NCBI RefSeq assembly: GCF_900105765.1
Contig: NZ_FNTX01000002.1
Span: 1,984,001 to 2,048,000 of the forward strand
Direction: 5' to 3'
Source: Ruania alba
GTDB taxonomy: Bacteria > Actinomycetota > Actinomycetes > Actinomycetales > Beutenbergiaceae
Length of the DNA: 64,000 bases
A model generated the notes under the pieces. The model did no database searches, was not told the origin of the DNA, and saw only the letters and a list, made by a program, of their open reading frames with translations. Both the position numbers and the translations under genes were made by a program. Positions 1,030-58,890 of this stretch are shown here, piece by piece. Each line of letters begins with the position of its first letter. Position 1 is the stretch's first letter.

Positions 1030-1330
1030 GGTAGGTGCCGCTGCTTGTCGAGTCCCGGCGGCGAGGTGCCATCGTTGGTCGGTGTGCCGCCACGAGGTGC
1101 CATCGTTGGTCGGTGTGGCGCCACGAGGTGCCATCGTTGGTCGCATCTGGGGGCGGTTGGCGACGATCGGTGTCACCTACCGGGATCGGTGCCCACGGCG
1201 AGGTGCCACTCCTTGTCGCCAATGCGCCCCGATCGCGACGACGACCGGCACCTACCGGGAATGGGCGCCACGGTAGGTGCCACTCCTCGTCGCTCGCCCG
1301 CGCTGATCGCGACGACGACCGGCACTTTGC
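1030..1330. repeat. Palindromic repeat cluster A1 (family A), upstream of the DUF559 gene
   Basis: About nine copies of a roughly 21-bp half-element around the core GAGGTGCCACTCGTCGTCGG occur in both orientations. Three forward copies (near 1062, 1093, 1124) form a perfect 31-bp-period tandem with the variant GAGGTGCCATCGTTGGTCGG. Facing pairs at 1197-1259 and 1271-1330 form hairpin-capable palindromes with loops of 10-15 bases. No convincing gene lies here; the overlapping open frames only read through the repeats. Related clusters lie at 2401-2690 and 11270-11558. Confidence 0.85.
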
Positions 1331-1357
1331 ACACGTCGCACCTCGTGGACTTTCTGG

Positions 1358-1383
1358 CTGTGGACATGCACCTCTATCCACAG
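1358..1383. promoter_or_regulatory. CTGTGGA/TCCACAG inverted repeat upstream of the DUF559 gene
   Basis: CTGTGGA and TCCACAG form a perfect 7-bp inverted repeat with a 12-bp spacer, 52 bp before the likely start codon. The right half reads CTATCCACAG, close to a DnaA box (TTATCCACA). The second DUF559 gene also has two TCCACA motifs at the same place, near its start. Function is unknown; it may be an operator or part of the element. Confidence 0.5.
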
Positions 1384-1434
1384 CACGGTCGATGTGCCCC
1401 GACATCGCGATGCCGCACGCGCCACGGTCGGTTC

Positions 1435-2391
1435 ATGAGACCTCCTCACCCGTTGCCGTCGAACCTGGTGGACCGGCCTTTCGCCGTCAGACAAGCCGTT
1501 GATCAGGGAGTTCATCCGGAGCGACTCCGCCGTGCCGACCTTGTCGCACCCTTCGTCGGGACCCGCCTGCCGGCTGATCGCGAGCCCACGCTGCTCGACC
1601 TGTGTCGCGCGCTCGCGGAGGTGCGCCCGGACTGCTTCATCTCCCATGCCACAGCTGCGCGGCTGCACGGTCTCCCGTTGCCGGCGCGCTTTCGTGGCGA
1701 CACAGCGATCGATCTCGCAGTGTTCAATCCCGGTAGGTCGCCGCGGTTGGACGGGGTCCGTGGGCACCACCTCGATCGCCGGTACACATCGGTGGTGCAG
1801 GTCAAGGACCACGCAGGCAGTGGCGATCATGACGGCGTGCCGACGTCCTCGCCGGTCTCCACCTGGCGTCAACTGGCCTGGGTGCTGAGTGAGCGGGAAC
1901 TGGTGGCGGTCGGGGACTCGCTCCTTCGCCGACAACAGCCGATGGCGACGATCGACCAGTTGCAGGCCGCAGTCGACTCGCTGCGCGGAGTGCCCGGACA
2001 TGGCCGGCTGTACCGAGCTCTGCTCGATGTGCGCCCCGGCACGGACTCCGGGCAGGAGTCGTCGCTGCGCGTCGACCTCATCCAGGCGGGCCTTCCGGAG
2101 CCGGAGATCAATCCGGCGATCTACGACGCCGATGGTGAGTTCATAGGGTACGGCGACATGGTGTTCCGCGAGCAGAAGGTGATCGTCGAGTACGACGGCG
2201 ACCATCATCGGACGGACATCGGCCAGTACAACACCGACGTGGACCGGCTGAACGCCTTCGGTCGCGCGGGATGGCTGGTGATCCGTGTCAACAAGTCGCA
2301 CCGTGGCGCCGCGCGCGCCCGGATCGTCGCCGAGATCCGCGACGCGTTGATCGATCGCGGATGGCGACCGGCCCTCCGACACGCGGCATAG
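1435..2391 (+). CDS. DUF559/AbiEi-like protein with winged-helix N-terminus and Vsr-type nuclease fold
   Basis: A 318-residue protein. The N-terminal part resembles the AbiEi-type winged helix (residues about 14-45), the middle carries SHATAARLHGLPLP, and the C-terminal part matches the DUF559/Vsr-like fold: YGD (D241), VIVEYDGDHH (E252, D254), then RLNAFGRAGWLVIRV. This D-x10-E-x-D spacing is identical in the second copy at 42805-43827. Acidic residues placed this way suggest a PD-(D/E)XK-type nuclease; activity is inferred. No AbiEii toxin gene is adjacent, so a classical toxin-antitoxin pair is unlikely. The gene is bracketed by repeat clusters A1 and A2. An in-frame ATG at 1366 would add MHLYPQHGR, matching MHLSPQPGR at the start of the second copy, so the longer form is possible. 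No clear ribosome site marks either start. Confidence 0.75.
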   Translation: MRPPHPLPSNLVDRPFAVRQAVDQGVHPERLRRADLVAPFVGTRLPADREPTLLDLCRALAEVRPDCFISHATAARLHGLPLPARFRGDTAIDLAVFNPGRSPRLDGVRGHHLDRRYTSVVQVKDHAGSGDHDGVPTSSPVSTWRQLAWVLSERELVAVGDSLLRRQQPMATIDQLQAAVDSLRGVPGHGRLYRALLDVRPGTDSGQESSLRVDLIQAGLPEPEINPAIYDADGEFIGYGDMVFREQKVIVEYDGDHHRTDIGQYNTDVDRLNAFGRAGWLVIRVNKSHRGAARARIVAEIRDALIDRGWRPALRHAA

Positions 2392-2400
2392 TGCCACCGG

Positions 2401-2690
2401 CTGCCGACGGATACCGGCACCTACCCGGTGAGCGAGGTGCCATCATTCGTCGCCGCCCGCCCTCATCCCGACAACCGTTGGCACCACGCTGGTATGACCT
2501 CGCGGGTTGGTGCCATGGGTCGTCGTCAGCACGCCGAGATGCCGACGACGAGTGGCACTTCGCGGGCCGGTGCCGACGGCGAGTGGCACCTCGCGGGGTG
2601 GTGGTGACGACGGGTGGCACTTCGCGGGCCGGTGCCGACGGCGAGTGGCACCTACCGGGGCGATACCGACAGCGAGCGGCACCTACCCGG
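2401..2690. repeat. Palindromic repeat cluster A2 (family A), downstream of the DUF559 gene
   Basis: About nine half-elements of the same family as at 1030-1330. Five reverse-oriented copies (core CGACGGCGAGTGGCACCT) follow one another at 30-32 bp spacing between 2540 and 2690; facing pairs at 2431-2484 and 2504-2565 form palindromes. The last copy runs over the stop codon of the convergent cysteine desulfurase gene, so the array reaches both flanking genes. Nothing else is seen between the two coding regions. Confidence 0.85.
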
Positions 2691-3869
2691 CGAGCGCGCC
2701 CACCGACTCGGCCACCAGGTCCGCGGCGGCCGCCAGGCCCTCGGCATCGACGTCGGCACCGGCTGTGAAGCGCACCGACGTCTGCGCCACCTCCGGCGCG
2801 ATCCCGCAGGCCAGGAGCACATGCGAGGGCTCGTCCGACCCCGCCGCGCACGCCGACCCGCTCGAGCTGATCACCCCGCGCCGTTCCAGCTCCAGCAGCA
2901 CCGCCTCGCCCGAGACCCCCGGGAAGCAGAACGAGGCATGGTTGGGCAGTCGTCCGACGGCGGTACTCCCGTCCCGTATCGACCCCGCCCCTGGCGGTGG
3001 TGCGGCCGGACTTCCGGTGAGCTGCGCCGCCGGCACCAGCTCCAGCACCCGCGCGGTGAAGTCGGCCATCGCCGCCCCGACCCGCGCCACCCGCGCCTCC
3101 CGCTCGGACTCAGCCAACGACAGCGCTACCCCCATCGCCACCGCCCCGGCCACGTTCTCGGTCCCTGACCGGCGCTCGCGCTCCTGCCCACCCCCGTGCA
3201 GGACAGGCTCCACCGGAAGGCGACCACGCAGGAACACCGCGCCGATGCCCTTGCCGGCACCGACCTTGTGCCCGGAGAGGCTCAGCGCGTCGACCCCGAG
3301 CCGGCCGACCTCCAGCGGCAGCCAGCCGGCGGCCTGCACCGCGTCGGTGTGCATCAGTGCACCCACCGCGTGGGCCGCCTCGGCCAGCGCGGCGACGTCC
3401 TGCACGGTCCCGATCTCGTTGTTCGCCAGCGCGATGCTCACCAGCGTGGTGTCCTCGCGCAGCACCGACCGCAACGCATCCGCCGTCACCACGCCGGCAC
3501 CGTCCACCGGCACCGTGGACACCTCGAACCCGTGCACCCGGCGCAGGTAGTCCACCGACTCCAGCACCGCCTCGTGCTCGATTCCCGAGGTCACCAGGTG
3601 GCGCCCGCGCGGGTTCGCCAACGCCAGCCCCTTGATGGCCAGGTTGTCGCACTCGGTCCCCCGGAGGTGAACGTCACCTCGCTCGCCCGGCAGCCCAGCA
3701 CGCGAGCGACGGACCGCCGCGCCTCCTGCAGCCCCGCCGCCGCTCGTTCACCCAGGCTGTGATGGCTCGACGGGTTCCCGAACTCTCCGGTGAGATAGGG
3801 CCACATCGCCTCCAATGCCTCGCGGCGCATCGCGGTGGTCGCTGCGGCATCCAGGTACAGCGCCGTCAT
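2683..3869 (-). pseudogene. Cysteine desulfurase (NifS-like) of the NAD operon, frameshifted
   Basis: A PLP-dependent class V aminotransferase. The start (MTALYLDAAATTAMRREAL) and the rest (SGIEHEAV, SLSGHKVGAGKGIG, SSGSACAAG) are clear but lie in two frames. The break is at 3658-3662, a run of five C on the plus strand; a sixth would restore TSGGTECDN and give a protein of about 395 residues. The pyridoxal lysine (SGHK) and the active cysteine (SGSACAAG) are present. The start overlaps the nadC stop by 4 bp, so it is the last gene of nrtR-nadABC. A NifS protein in this place probably supplies sulfur for the 4Fe-4S cluster of NadA. The single-base loss may be a sequencing error rather than a dead gene. 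Confidence 0.85.
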
Positions 3870-9073: not shown

Positions 9074-11174
<2,101 letters not shown>

Positions 11175-11211
11175 GCGAGCGCTGACCTCGCGCTCTGCGC
11201 GAACCATCACT

Positions 11212-11243
11212 GACGGCGGGTACCTCACGGGGTGCCCGCCGTC
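11212..11243 (+). terminator. Probable terminator stem-loop after eno
   Basis: GACGGCGGG and CCCGCCGTC pair perfectly around a 14-base loop, 38 bases after the eno stop. No U-run follows, as is common for actinobacterial terminators. Confidence 0.6.
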
Positions 11244-11269
11244 CGTGCGTCCCGAGCCCCCGCGCCCCG

Positions 11270-11558
11270 CGAGGTGCCGCTCGTCGTCGGTCTCGCCCGG
11301 GATGAGCGACGGCGGTTGGCACCTACCGAAGCCTGGGCGCCACTCGTTGTTGGTGTCGCTCGGGGTGTCGACGGCGGACGGCACCTACCAGCGGGGGTGG
11401 CAGTCGTCGGTGCGTCCCGAGCCCTCGCCCACCACCGCGAGGTGCCACTCGTCGTCGGTGCCGCCCGGGATTTCCGACGGCGGATGGCACCTACCGAAGC
11501 CTGGGTGCCACTCGTCGTCGGTATCGGGGCGCGGGACCGACAGCGAGTGGCACCTTGC
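11270..11558. repeat. Palindromic repeat cluster A3 (family A), between eno and divIC
   Basis: Half-elements with the core GAGGTGCCACTCGTCGTCGG alternate with their reverse complements, giving at least four hairpin-capable units. The cleanest is 11438-11494, whose loop is about 15-20 bases; the next copy at 11503-11555 is nearly as good. Most units repeat at about 60-65 bp. This is the same family that brackets the DUF559 gene about 9 kb away, but no DUF559 gene is beside it here. The stretch holds no gene; long open frames across it only read through the repeats. Confidence 0.85.
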
Positions 11559-11620
11559 GAGTGTGATGGGGAGCGCTACCCAGCGACTCGCGCCGGGCGT
11601 TCCGGGAGAATCGGCCCAGC

Positions 11621-12468
11621 GTGGGCGACCATGGGGTCGTGGCTGCCCGACGACCTCCCTCACCGCGCACCCCTGCGCGCGCGTCGTCGACCCCGAGCAA
11701 GGCAGCCACGGCCACGAAGACCGCCCCGGCGAAGGGCCGCACCGGAGGTGGCAGGACCGCCGCCAGCAAGGCAGCGGGCGCCAGCACGGCCACTGGTCAG
11801 GCCGCGGGTGGTCGGTCCACCCCACGCAGGTCCACGGGGGCGCAGCGGGCAAGGCGGCGGCCGGCAAAACAGTTCCCCGCACCACGTCCGGGCGCGCACC
11901 CGGACGTGCCGCCACCCGCAGCGGCGCCTCGCGCAGCGCGCCGCGCTCGGCATCGTCCCGGCCGGCACCCAAGTCGGTCCGTCCGCAGAGCAAGCCGCAG
12001 CCGAAGCCCTCCGCAACTCGACGGTCCGCCACTGCGCGGCGCGGCGGAGCGACCCGCGAGGAGGCGACCGAGCCGCGCCAGATCACGGTGCGCGGACTGG
12101 TGCTCTTCGTGGTGATCTTGATGGCGTTCATCGTGCTGGCGCCCACGCTGCGGGCGTACGTCACCCAGCAGGAGGAGCAGCGCGATCTCGCTGCCCAGAT
12201 CGTCGCCGCTCGCGATCGCAACGCCGAGCTGCAGGCGCAGATCGACCAGTGGGAGGACCCGGTCTACGTCCAGGCCCGAGCCCGCGACCGGCTCGGATTC
12301 GTGATGCCGGGGGAGACCCCGTACCGTGTGGTCGATCCCGAGACCGTGACCGGCGAGGAACCCGCCTCCGCGGCGGATGACCAGGGCCCGGTCTCGGTGC
12401 CGCCGACCGGCCCCTGGTACCTGACCGTGTGGGACTCGGTGCAGGTCGCCGGCGAGATCGAGGACTGA
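11621..12468 (+). CDS. Septum formation initiator family protein (DivIC/FtsB-like), probable frameshift
   Basis: The C-terminal half is clear: one membrane helix (VLFVVILMAFIVLAPTLRAY), a short coiled coil (QEEQRDLAAQIVAARDRNAELQAQI) and the W-E-D-P-x-Y-V-x-x-x-A-R-x-x-L block of the DivIC/FtsB family, a bitopic divisome protein. The preceding Ala/Ser/Lys/Thr-rich disordered region starts in another frame (GTG 11621) and changes frame near 11836-11840, where five G stand; six would join STGG to AAGKAAAGKT. The gene follows eno and precedes DUF501, as Rv1024 does. The start and the joining point are inferred. Confidence 0.8.
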
Positions 12469-16488: not shown

Positions 16489-16893
16489 CTATCCCTGCGC
16501 CACGATCTCCACCTCGAACCCGCGCGCGTCCTCCAGGTAGGCGGCGTAGTGCTCGTCGCCACCGGCCCACGGGTGCCGGTGGGCAAACATCAAGGTCCAC
16601 CCGTGGTGACCGGCGGCCACGGTGAGCGCCTCCACCTCGGCGCGCGTGCCGCCGTCGAAGGCCAGGTGGTTCAGTCCCGGCTGACGGCGCTCCGCCCGTG
16701 CCCCGATCACGTCCGGACCGTGCTCCAGCACCAGATAGGTCGCCCCGAGCGACCAGGACGATCCCTCCGGCCATCGGGACGTACAGACGTATCCGAGTTC
16801 GGTGAGCAACCAGATCCAGCTGTGCGTGGCGGCCTCGTCGGGCAGCCAGATCTCCAGGTGGTGCACGGTGCCGCGAGTCATTGATGTCCCCAT
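16489..16893 (-). CDS. VOC family protein, second copy
   Basis: 134 residues, or 130 from the internal ATG at 16881. The fold is that of small glyoxalase-like proteins: GTVHHLEIWLPDEAATHSWIW, LNHLAFDGGTRAEVEALTVA, HYAAYLEDARGFEVEIVA. It is only distantly similar to the neighbour at 16031 and is separated from it by 92 bp, so it is probably not a recent duplication. It is divergent from the membrane protein/GntR unit. Substrate unknown. Confidence 0.85.
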   Translation of the reverse strand: MGTSMTRGTVHHLEIWLPDEAATHSWIWLLTELGYVCTSRWPEGSSWSLGATYLVLEHGPDVIGARAERRQPGLNHLAFDGGTRAEVEALTVAAGHHGWTLMFAHRHPWAGGDEHYAAYLEDARGFEVEIVAQG

Positions 16894-16958
16894 CTTGTAT
16901 CAACAACTTGACACAAAATGTGTCCGTTGCCATCTTTGTGTCACATCAACGGTACAAG
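16894..16958. promoter_or_regulatory. Promoter and long imperfect inverted repeat before the membrane protein/GntR unit
   Basis: CTTGTA...GACACAAA on the left is mirrored by TTTGTGTC...TACAAG on the right over 65 bp. A smaller perfect repeat, GACACA-AAA-TGTGTC, sits inside at 16910-16924. TTGACA (16908-16913) with a 17-bp spacer to CATCTT gives a plus-strand promoter across the repeat. The stretch is unusually AT-rich for this window. It is a plausible binding site for the GntR protein encoded two genes on. Confidence 0.65.
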
Positions 16959-16972
16959 AAAGGGAGATCATC

Positions 16973-21136: not shown

Positions 21137-21213
21137 GCCCCCATAGCCCAACCGGCAGAGGCAGCCGACTTAAAATCGGCACAGTCAGGGTTCGAGTCCC
21201 TGTGGGGGCACCA
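21137..21213 (+). tRNA. tRNA-Leu(TAA) by anticodon, class I shape, CCA encoded
   Basis: A 77-base cloverleaf. Acceptor GCCCCCA/TGGGGGC pairs fully (21137-21143 with 21203-21209), then A and CCA. Anticodon stem GCCGA/TCGGC encloses the loop CTTAAAA with anticodon TAA at 21171-21173. The T-arm is CAGGG-TTCGAGT-CCCTG. The variable region is only 5 bases (ACAGT), whereas bacterial tRNA-Leu normally has a long variable arm. The gene sits between ndh and a serine hydrolase gene. Confidence 0.85.
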
Positions 21214-42706: not shown

Positions 42707-42776
42707 GAATCCCCTTTCCGCCGTCGAACCAGGCTCCCGCCCTCCGCAGCGTGGTTCGGCGGCGGGAAGGGGATTC
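42707..42776. repeat. Palindromic repeat B1 (family B), 3' side of the second DUF559 gene
   Basis: Two 25-bp arms (42707-42731 and 42752-42776) are inverted copies with 23 of 25 matches around a 20-base loop. The arms begin GAATCCCCTT and end GAACCA. The same arm recurs at 43876-43900 on the other side of the gene. The surrounding 42519-42804 holds no other gene that I can support. Confidence 0.9.
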
Positions 42777-42804: not shown

Positions 42805-43827
42805 CTACCGCAGCTGGCGGGGAAGGCGGGGGCGAGGCACTCCGGCACGCACGAGCTTGCCCTCCAACGGGGTCCGCAGCCACGCGTCCCGCCAGCTCCA
42901 CCGCACCAGACCGCGCAGCTGCGACCGCAGCTCGTCCTCGCGGTGCTTCTCCTCGAGGACCGTGGCCCCAGCATCGGAGCCGGAGTGCAGGTACTTCGTG
43001 TCGCCGTCGGCCTCGCCGCCGATCCCAGCTTCCTCCCAGTAGAAGTCCAGGTATGCCGAACCGGTGGTGACGTCGAAGCGAACCTGGTGGCGTGGGGCCG
43101 CGAAGCCCAGCTCGTCGATGGTGAGGTCGCTGACAGTTTCCAGTGGTGACTCGGCGTTGTCGCGCACTCGTTCGAGCACCGCCTGCACGCGACGATGGCT
43201 GCGGTAGGGGAGGAGCCGCTCGTGCTCGACCCATAGCCGAGCCGGTGTGGTCAGGCCACCGGCGCCCTGGCGGGTCAGGCATGCGGCGTTCGCCGCCACG
43301 AGTGCGCTCACGAGCGGAGCGTGGCGGGCGAGCTGGATCAGCGTGAACTCCACGTCAGTGAGCTCGAGGCCACACGTCGTCGTCACAGGGACGTCGGATC
43401 GTCGGGCCACGCTGACCAGTCCGCGTCGTCGTTTGCCGTGCGCGGTCCGTGACAGCACGTAGATGTCCTGCGGCCAGCGCCCCACGATCGGTAGCCCGAG
43501 CAGCGCGACCGCAGACCAGCTCGTGAACACCGGCGAGTGCAGCCGTCGCGCGGCGGCCAGGACGAGTCGGAGGTAGTCGGCAGCGCGTTGCTGCCCAGGC
43601 GAACCGTGGGTCGTGGCGATGCGTGGGACGTAGACGCCCCGTGCCACTCGTTCCAGCCTCCCATCCCGGTGCGCGCGCAGCAGCGGCTTCTCCAACCCGA
43701 GCTCTGCGGCGGCAGCGTAGGTGATGAGCTCCTTGCCGAGGTTCCAGGCGTGTGTCATCTCGTCAGCAGACCGGTGCATGCCCGGTTGCTGCCGTCGCGT
43801 GCGACCGGGTTGTGGAGACAGATGCAT
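42805..43827 (-). CDS. DUF559/AbiEi-like protein, second copy
   Basis: 340 residues from ATG 43827; an ATG at 43758 is an alternative and fits the domain start better. The AbiEi-type winged helix is ITYAAAAELGLEKPLLRAHR then VARGVYVPR (about 36-70). The C-terminal nuclease-like core reads YLDFYWEEAGIGGEADGD, D261-E272-D274, the same D-x10-E-x-D-G spacing as the copy at 1435-2391. The leader MHLSPQPGR parallels MHLYPQHGR before that copy. Two TCCACA motifs stand at the start. It lies alone between palindromes B1 and B2 and separates the sugar importer's binding-protein gene from its permeases, so it looks like an inserted cassette. No toxin partner is present. Confidence 0.75.
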   Translation of the reverse strand: MHLSPQPGRTRRQQPGMHRSADEMTHAWNLGKELITYAAAAELGLEKPLLRAHRDGRLERVARGVYVPRIATTHGSPGQQRAADYLRLVLAAARRLHSPVFTSWSAVALLGLPIVGRWPQDIYVLSRTAHGKRRRGLVSVARRSDVPVTTTCGLELTDVEFTLIQLARHAPLVSALVAANAACLTRQGAGGLTTPARLWVEHERLLPYRSHRRVQAVLERVRDNAESPLETVSDLTIDELGFAAPRHQVRFDVTTGSAYLDFYWEEAGIGGEADGDTKYLHSGSDAGATVLEEKHREDELRSQLRGLVRWSWRDAWLRTPLEGKLVRAGVPRPRLPRQLR

Positions 43828-43875: not shown

Positions 43876-43945
43876 GAATCCCCTTCCCGCCGCGGAACCA
43901 CTCACCGGAGAGTGGAAAGGGGATTCGACGGCGGAAAGGGGATTC
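43876..43945. repeat. Palindromic repeat B2 (family B), 5' side of the second DUF559 gene
   Basis: The arm at 43876-43900 differs from the consensus of B1 at one base. It faces two copies of GGAAAGGGGATTC (43914-43926 and 43933-43945); the second extends left as GACGGC and matches 19 bases of the B1 left arm. It is a nested or partly duplicated version of the B1 palindrome. Confidence 0.88.
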
Positions 43946-43950
43946 GGGAG

Positions 43951-44020
43951 CGCCCGGCGAGGAGTGGGCGCCCGGCGAGGAGTGGGCGCCCGGCGAGGAG
44001 TGGGCGTCCGGTGAGGGGGG
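43951..44020. repeat. 18-bp tandem repeat beside palindrome B2
   Basis: CGCCCGGCGAGGAGTGGG occurs three times without change at 43951, 43969 and 43987, then a decayed fourth copy to 44020. It begins 5 bp after B2 and lies 80 bp before the permease stop. Nothing codes here. Confidence 0.9.
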
Positions 44021-58489: not shown

Positions 58490-58890
58490 CGCCCCCTCCT
58501 CACCGAGCGCAGCGTCCCCCTCGCTGAGCGCAACCCTGTGCGGCGTTCAGTGCCCGCCACGCCGCACCAGGCTGCGCTCGGCCCAGGGTGGTGGGTGCGT
58601 AACTGCAGGGGCAGCCGGGAACGAGACGTGGGACGGCCGATGACGGGCCGGTGAACTCTCATGGTGATTGGTCGCCACGCCGCGCCAATCAACGACACGC
58701 ATGCTGCGCCGTCGTACGTTGGGCTCACCGGACGACATCCCGGTCGTTCGCCGGAAGGCCAGCCCATGACGCAGACGAGTCCGCAGGTGGAGCCACCGGC
58801 CGCCTGCGCTCATGTGGTGCCTCCCGTTCTCACCCCGAGCCTGTCGCACGCACGAGAGCGGCAGGTCAGGCCCGCCTGGAGGAGCTAGCC
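58490..58890. other. Non-coding stretch before phoH
   Basis: About 400 bp with several short open frames but no codon pattern, signal or family I can support. An ATG at 58766 opens a 41-codon frame (MTQTSPQVEPP) without clear ribosome site. GAGCGCAGCGTCCCCCTCGC and a near repeat of it lie at 58505-58535. The end carries the GGAGGAG of phoH. Confidence 0.5.

Follow-up and report, generated by a model that had tools for sequence, protein, structure and literature searches.

An actinobacterial nuclease gene and its own dispersed palindrome look like a repeat-spreading partnership not described before

Why should two genes in one stretch of chromosome each be enclosed by a palindrome family of its own? 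The question arises in a 64,000-nucleotide (nt) stretch of Ruania alba contig NZ_FNTX01000002.1 (positions 1,984,001 to 2,048,000), hereafter the window, where gene A and gene B are flanked on both sides by private palindromic elements, termed family A and family B (Table 1). The initial annotation had described this bracketing, and core matches set against shuffled sequence confirm it. The family A core GGTGCCACTCGTCGTCG, with up to 3 mismatches, has 20 matches in the window versus 1.42 expected by shuffling (largest shuffle 5), four of them in 1202-1326 and six in 2509-2683. The family B core GAATCCCCTTTCCGCC has five matches at the same tolerance versus 0.52 expected (largest shuffle 3), all confined to 42707-42776 and 43876-43945. 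Beyond the elements annotated earlier, the window has four family A elements within 11273-11554, and a third family, D, is represented once, at 58523-58582. We consider it probable that the AbiEi/nuclease protein recognises its own private palindrome and maintains or spreads it, as REP-associated tyrosine transposases (RAYTs) do with repetitive extragenic palindromic (REP) sequences, by means of an unrelated nuclease.

Both reading frames are open, the ATG of gene A lying inside a longer frame (1045-2391). Judged by their profiles, the two genes belong to one protein family, composed of an AbiEi-type N-terminal part and a DUF559/Vsr-like nuclease. This kinship follows from profile-profile comparison, in which relatives of A (56 sequences) align with relatives of B and of a paralog, gene D (12 sequences), over 288 columns with 99.8% probability and an expectation value (E) of 9e-30. 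Pfam matches gene A to DUF559 (E 1.5e-4) and to no AbiEi profile, and gene B to AbiEi_4 (E 1.7e-6, above the Pfam cut-off) and not to DUF559. The label DUF559/AbiEi-like, first applied to both genes, holds as DUF559 for gene A and as AbiEi_4 for gene B, and the AbiEi winged helix claimed for both proteins stands for gene B by Pfam, gene A being tied to it through profile-profile comparison. PADLOC matches gene B and gene D to AbiEi models and gene A to no model at E 0.01.

The annotated D-x10-E-x-D-G core is present in both proteins, and the two profile sets have in common S-x2-E, D, E, G, H and D-x2-R. D241, G255 and H258 are invariant across the 56 A-type sequences and E252 is kept in at least 90%, while D261, E272, D274, G275 and H281 of gene B are invariant in the 12 B/D-type sequences. 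The second D of E-x-D-G is thus invariant in the B/D set and below 90% in the A set; the first D of the core is replaced by E in one congener's protein. The predicted structure of protein A (mean predicted local distance difference test score 94.2) relates its nuclease part to the catalytic domain of I-Bth0305I (3r3p; probability 0.96, template modeling (TM) score 0.70 by target length, E 0.35), with further fold matches to endonuclease-like 3hrl and PvuRts1I; Toxoplasma mitoribosome proteins had better E-values against the model, but TM-scores below 0.3. A sequence-profile search of solved structures ranks 3hrl first (E 3.9e-4), with 3r3p at E 0.061. The Pfam families listed for the 56 A-type members include DUF559 in 41 and MTES_1575 in 47, and no transposase family is among those listed. 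The REP/RAYT-like layout with a different protein, as initially annotated, is real, and by Pfam and fold the protein is unrelated to RAYT.

Three surveys reveal repeats bracketing the gene on both sides in more than half of the tested nuclease genes. Set 1 comprised DUF559 genes from same-genus and same-family genomes (27 of 28 listed places, one at a contig end being omitted and weaker DUF559 places lying beyond the list), ten genes chosen from the order, and own-genome genes B to F, 41 of 42 having both flanks. At 24 of these 41 loci a flank-to-flank repeat exceeds the 99th percentile of both controls, which comprised 1681 mismatched flank pairs and 700 windows shifted within those loci. Set 2 took the 80 top-scoring gene A relatives from named genomes (78 testable; at least 557 relatives in one scan), and 46 of the 78 clear the 99th percentile of each control (n=6163 and n=453). 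The bar of sets 1 and 2 is raised because mismatched pairs include orthologs. Set 3, 30 AbiEi_4 places measured against mismatched pairs as its one control (n=870, 99th percentile), passes 14 of 24 genes of at least 270 amino acids (aa) and 0 of 6 short AbiEi genes below 230 aa; a pattern search finds the nuclease-like motif in 21 of the 24 long genes, two of them doubtful. Control genes in the stretches of sets 1 and 2, called with a rough gene caller, exceed the set 2 bar in 4 of 311 cases. Two genes occur twice: G007a = L108 belongs to sets 1 and 2, and G043b = L332 to sets 1 and 3. The only pass among these entries is that of L332 as a member of set 3. These counts run counter to the possibility that most such genes lack flanking palindromes. 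Among the highest controls stands a gene in G014 (L084, about 1911-3048, or 10954-12091 on the reversed strand), some kilobases downstream of a DUF559 gene, with repeats around it.

The own genome (G000), in which as in its relatives genome-wide counts derive from pattern searches, holds at least eight nuclease-type genes among the matches listed in protein and family searches, and these paralogs carry different palindrome families. Their best flank-to-flank alignment scores are 46 (A), 84 (B), 56 (C), 68 (D), 34 (E), 26 (F), 104 (g) and 94 (H), so that six of the eight pass the bar of about 43 taken from set 1, with slightly different flank windows. The downstream palindrome of gene E is related but eroded, and gene F retains short pieces only. 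At C2:882383 lies a short AbiEi gene whose adjacent open reading frame matches AbiEii (E 4e-35), the two forming a true type IV AbiEi/AbiEii operon; it shows no two-sided repeat (score 21), family A elements occurring upstream only. Gene H of G000 (L285/L293 pair) and the gene D ortholog of G006 have identical or near-identical palindromes on both sides, in the same orientation and with the spacer included.

The elements, about 50-70 bp long, are composed of two inverted arms (17-24 nt) and a spacer (15-22 nt) that is near-fixed in length and mostly unconserved in sequence. Arm spacing is 35 nt in 19 of 19 A' elements (A' being the form at several gene A orthologs), 34 in 43 of 48 A elements, 38 in 40 of 45 D elements (37 in the remaining five) and 34 in 47 of 59 elements of a Promicromonospora family (35 in the remaining 12). 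The arms of A and A' are well conserved, with a variable middle in A, and their spacers and outer flanks are at background; family D spacers display a weak GTTTC...GAAAC symmetry. Most elements fall outside called genes (D 24/26, A' 13/18, A 37/43; rough gene caller, 79% called coding), and of 26 D copies, 8 lie between convergent and 12 between tandem genes. The Promicromonospora arms covary specifically at paired positions, with a mutual information of 0.235 for paired versus 0.046 for unpaired positions (listed pairs, two genomes). Arm complementarity is therefore maintained in at least one family, either through use of the hairpin or through correction of one arm by the other. D arms also covary at paired positions (match 0.916 versus 0.886 shuffled, 0 of 5000; own-genome copies only); another D mutual-information value, from two species mixed, is inflated. 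GTAG occurs at 30/86 element ends in A (noted at window 1235-1290 and in loci L008-L037), 1/36 in A', 0/52 in D and 0/32 in Promicromonospora, and CGTC at 3, 1, 4 and 6 ends, respectively; neither forms a foot shared across the four families. Insertion of family D into terminator stems, suggested by C-rich and G-rich surroundings, was considered, and pair-specific complementarity outside the elements was not found.

Gene and repeat tend to occur together. Gene A orthologs with A' flanks are present in G001, G002 and G004, which hold 14, 13 and 16 A' half-sites; the other five genomes hold 5 (G006), 4 (G000) and 1 each (G003, G005, G007), against 0-1 for the reversed control, and a search with gene A gives no match in G005 at E 1e-20. 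The palindromes at gene A orthologs take the form GGTGCC..GTCG in G000 and G006, GTTGCC..GTCG in G001, G002 and G004, TTTGCC..CGTCGCC in G007 and another form in G003. D half-sites number 101 in G000, 18 in G002 and 0-2 in the other six genomes; the G002 ortholog of gene D (59%) has a slightly changed palindrome, and those of G006 (66%) and G005 (57%) have palindromes of quite different sequence. The Promicromonospora family has 95, 70 and 30 half-sites in three genomes of that genus and 0 in six of other genera. The Cryobacterium L134 pattern (up to 3 mismatches) finds two elements in its own genome, both flanking the gene, and 0 to 34 half-sites in eleven other genomes. Copy number thus ranges from two flanking copies alone to about 50 elements, and the families are near absent from most examined genomes lacking a matching allele. 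The A', D and Promicromonospora families, at least, are not equally common with and without the matching allele. Genome-wide pattern searches bear out dispersal for A' and D; for family A, dispersal is evident from strict pair spacing in place of raw counts. G004 and G006 also contain arrays of another family, GAAATCCGTCGTCGATCTGG (G004:C1 near 1086250 and 1313300), which resemble the flanks of gene G004b/G006a.

Comparison with known systems sets this arrangement apart. RAYTs belong to the HUH tyrosine nucleases of the IS200/IS605 group, and GTAG is the foot of RAYT-type REPs. In the REPtron, as characterized in PMC8266576 and PMC3733652, a single gene has short palindromes, often arranged as inverted pairs, on its flanks, such palindromes also occur scattered between other genes, and enzyme and repeat co-evolve. 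Here too the palindromes bracket the gene and are dispersed intergenically, except in the Cryobacterium L134 genome with its two flanking copies. Unlike in the REPtron, the protein is of the PD-(D/E)XK, Vsr-like type with an AbiEi-type N-terminal part and is no HUH tyrosine transposase, arms and spacers are long, and a common GTAG or CGTC foot is absent, despite the GTAG at many family A ends. The CGTC-tagged REPs, which PMC3733652 describes as dispersed palindromes without RAYT association or a known enzyme, differ in being mostly alpha-proteobacterial and in having short stems of 8-9 bp.

The protein A model shares a Vsr-like catalytic fold (E 0.35) with the EDxHD homing endonuclease I-Bth0305I, which according to a review binds as a dimer a target of nearly 60 bp (PMC3943268). 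Unlike for I-Bth0305I, no intron or intein setting is seen, and copies of the putative target lie on either side of the gene and recur elsewhere in the genome; with respect to homing, in which a gene interrupts its own target, orthologs of gene A and of gene D each occupy one common site. Gene B and its relatives share the AbiEi_4 domain with the AbiEi/AbiEii type IV toxin-antitoxin systems, but genes A and B carry an extra nuclease domain and adjoin no AbiEii. The DUF559 nuclease domain is shared with Vsr/DUF559 endonucleases such as Caulobacter VsrA (PMC12907096), whereas the proteins here, at about 300 aa, possess an N-terminal part, and private repeats accompany their genes. A limited open-access literature search, with preprints and most subscription papers outside it, listed no paper joining DUF559 or AbiEi genes with palindromic repeats. 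The pairing of an AbiEi/DUF559 protein family with private dispersed palindromes fits no family tested; if the kind is taken to be a gene plus cognate dispersed palindromes, it is a variant of that kind with an unrelated enzyme.

Recognition of the palindrome by the protein is supported, as a prediction from sequence comparison, and its cutting and spreading are what we infer. The protein would bind the palindrome as a dimer, one subunit per arm, an arrangement that fits the near-fixed length and mostly free sequence of the spacer; Vsr/EDxHD kinship and the long I-Bth0305I target also fit dimer binding. Nicking or cutting would strike the spacer, or the palindrome once extruded as a hairpin, and would be confined to some permissive state, as cutting must be conditional given that dozens of intact copies coexist with the gene. 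A folded intermediate would be favored in some families, because arms covary. Repair or replication of the break would keep copies uniform and now and then seed new ones in intergenic DNA. The autonomous unit would be the gene with its two flanking copies, dispersed copies being non-autonomous, and the minimal unit, gene plus two elements, is found in one Cryobacterium genome. Extending this, we tentatively entertain, at somewhat less than even weight, a selfish repeat system built on a Vsr/EDxHD-like PD-(D/E)XK nuclease whose AbiEi-type part binds DNA. Through nicks or cuts followed by host repair, this protein would multiply its own palindrome and keep the copies alike. Such a system would be a RAYT-like convergence without a transposase, would occur widely among actinobacteria and would be represented in each genome by several independent lineages.

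Several observations weigh against recognition and spreading by the protein. Genes A and D occupy conserved syntenic sites, orthologs of gene A sharing their flanking DNA in G001, G002, G004 and G007 and likewise between G004 and G006, and therefore the gene is mostly inherited vertically. Insertions of at least 30 nt inside aligned blocks of G004 and G006 (about 240 kb, mostly 89-94% identity) number 21, among them an array that has expanded and another that only one of the two genomes contains; four beat shuffles for palindromes, two of these being element arrays by eye, and neither a clean empty site nor a target duplication was found in these blocks, with none in the two polymorphic arrays. 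Repeat similarity rises with protein identity across genera (Mantel test, 0 of 500 permutations); the similarity of DNA 1.2-1.5 kb away follows the same trend, which leaves the test confounded by synteny. No shared repeat was detected in 17/41, 32/78 and 10/24 genes of sets 1, 2 and 3. The family A core (2-3 mismatches) has 68 raw matches in G000, 42 in G006 and 7-20 in the others. The reversed-pattern control gives 29-89 in these genomes and is as common or commoner in most of them, so the raw count does not exceed it and is indecisive. D254 of gene A is conserved in fewer than 90% of the 56 A-type sequences, arm covariation was tested and not found in A or A', and that in D could stem from shared descent of subfamilies. 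To our knowledge no PD-(D/E)XK nuclease has strand-transfer activity, so copying would need host repair. Binding, cutting and transposition are, moreover, all putative activities of the protein.

At one genus-conserved intergenic site, G002 (L297) carries a different paralog in opposite orientation relative to G004 and G006 (L288/L291), which suggests gene replacement or inversion.

The alternative that survives best, though we judge it unlikely, is that a DNA-organising or regulatory protein binds the palindromes, which would act as operators of a genome-wide regulon. The nuclease domain would then serve for dimerisation or DNA grip, and selection would hold the sites in place while their sequence drifts along with the protein. 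Old sites changing in place would explain three intergenic sites distant from the gene at which G000 has an A element and a congener an A' element at the orthologous place (L018/L238, L008/L228/L249 and L027/L230), and a fourth with A-type elements in both G000 and G004; such changed elements reflect either in-place change with the protein or displacement of old elements by new ones. Dimer sites typically have a spacer that is constant in length and free in sequence, as here, and the lack of arm covariation in A and A' also suits regulation. Covarying arms in two families do not, and neither do elements placed downstream of the gene as well as upstream, an array expanded between two congeners, a copy number that varies widely among genomes, or the conservation of most active-site residues (D254 less so).

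Improbable, in our estimate, is a role of the palindromes as decoys or self-marks restraining an otherwise harmful nuclease, the whole forming a module for defence or addiction with ties to type IV toxin-antitoxin systems. The N-terminal AbiEi kinship (genes B and D in PADLOC, gene B in Pfam AbiEi_4) and the several paralogs per genome point this way, as does a Caulobacter DUF559 protein that, according to PMC12907096, drives a DNA damage response when a cytosine methyltransferase is lacking. Against decoys speak the absence of AbiEii among the scanned neighbours of genes A and B and of any PADLOC match for gene A at E 0.01, and the two elements of Cryobacterium alone would presumably be poor decoys.

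A shade less probable again, ordinary REP-like elements could be moved by another enzyme, the genes merely sitting in repeat-rich spots. The intergenic placement is REP-like and GTAG marks 30/86 family A ends, but that motif is nearly or wholly missing from the ends of A', D and Promicromonospora elements. Repeat-rich spots would also not account for the different families beside paralogs of one genome, the rarity of shared flank repeats at control genes in the same stretches (4/311), the own-genome AbiEi/AbiEii operon without a two-sided repeat, or the near absence of the families from most examined genomes without a matching allele. Transcription terminators or chance palindromes in GC-rich DNA are very improbable: many D copies do lie between convergent or tandem genes, but the same sequence recurs at either flank of the gene and far away from it while rare or absent in related genomes, the survey controls (mismatched pairs, shifted windows, control genes) seldom show sharing, and an Rfam search of five sources gave one tRNA only.

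Should the protein indeed recognise and spread its palindrome, many orphan DUF559 and AbiEi_4 genes of actinobacteria, now filed as unknown or as antitoxins, would gain a function, and REP-like repeat populations could arise with an unrelated enzyme, a plain nuclease. A selfish nuclease-repeat system would account for many of the palindromes between actinobacterial genes and for orphan AbiEi/DUF559 genes being so abundant. The many natural protein-site pairs, with sites of 50-70 bp and a specificity changing along the phylogeny, would offer a ready system for studies of long-site recognition.

Table 1. Genes and palindromic elements of the window and nuclease-type paralogs in the own genome (window positions, except those prefixed C1 or C2, which are contig positions)
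Feature	Position	Strand	Details	Basis
Gene A	1435-2391	+	318 aa; AbiEi-like N-terminal part and DUF559/Vsr-like PD-(D/E)XK nuclease; D241, E252, D254, G255, H258, D268	
Gene B	42805-43827	-	340 aa; AbiEi_4 N-terminal domain and same nuclease core as gene A; D261, E272, D274, G275, H281	
Family A half-elements, degenerate	1033-1170		GAGGTGCCATCGTTGGTCG repeated	By eye
Family A element, upstream 1	1202-1252		Arms 17, spacing 34	Core pattern, pair spacing
Family A element, upstream 2	1276-1326			Core pattern, pair spacing
Family A element, downstream	2509-2559			Core pattern, pair spacing
Four family A half-sites in tandem	2574-2683	-	31-nt period	Core pattern
Family A element, dispersed	11273-11323			Core pattern, pair spacing
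Family A element, dispersed, degenerate	11336-11385		Spacing 33	Element comparison
Family A element, dispersed	11441-11491			Core pattern, pair spacing
Family A element, dispersed	11504-11554			Inverted repeat, core pattern, pair spacing
Family B element, downstream side of gene B	42707-42776		70 bp	Inverted repeat, core pattern
Family B element, upstream side of gene B	43876-43945		70 bp	Inverted repeat, core pattern
Family D element, dispersed	58523-58582		60 bp; cognate gene at C2:1556407-1557348	Inverted repeat, pattern
Gene C	C1:1538395			Protein/family searches
Gene D	C2:1556407			Protein/family searches
Gene E	C1:163014			Protein/family searches
Gene F	C2:2297221		Broken	Protein/family searches
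Gene g	C2:21328			Protein/family searches
Gene H	C1:671534			Protein/family searches

The four scanned neighbours of genes A and B encode TetR, aminotransferase class V, solute-binding and transporter proteins, with no AbiEii among them; those of gene A within the window are the TetR and aminotransferase class V genes. Adjoining the upstream B element, an 18-nt unit, GCGCCCGGCGAGGAGTGG, is repeated head-to-tail in three full and one degenerate copies at 43950-44015 (by eye). The Rfam search matched no family other than the tRNA. A tRNA gene is located at 21137-21210, and a long imperfect inverted repeat, with arms of 36 that are 72% complementary, spans 16882-16970.

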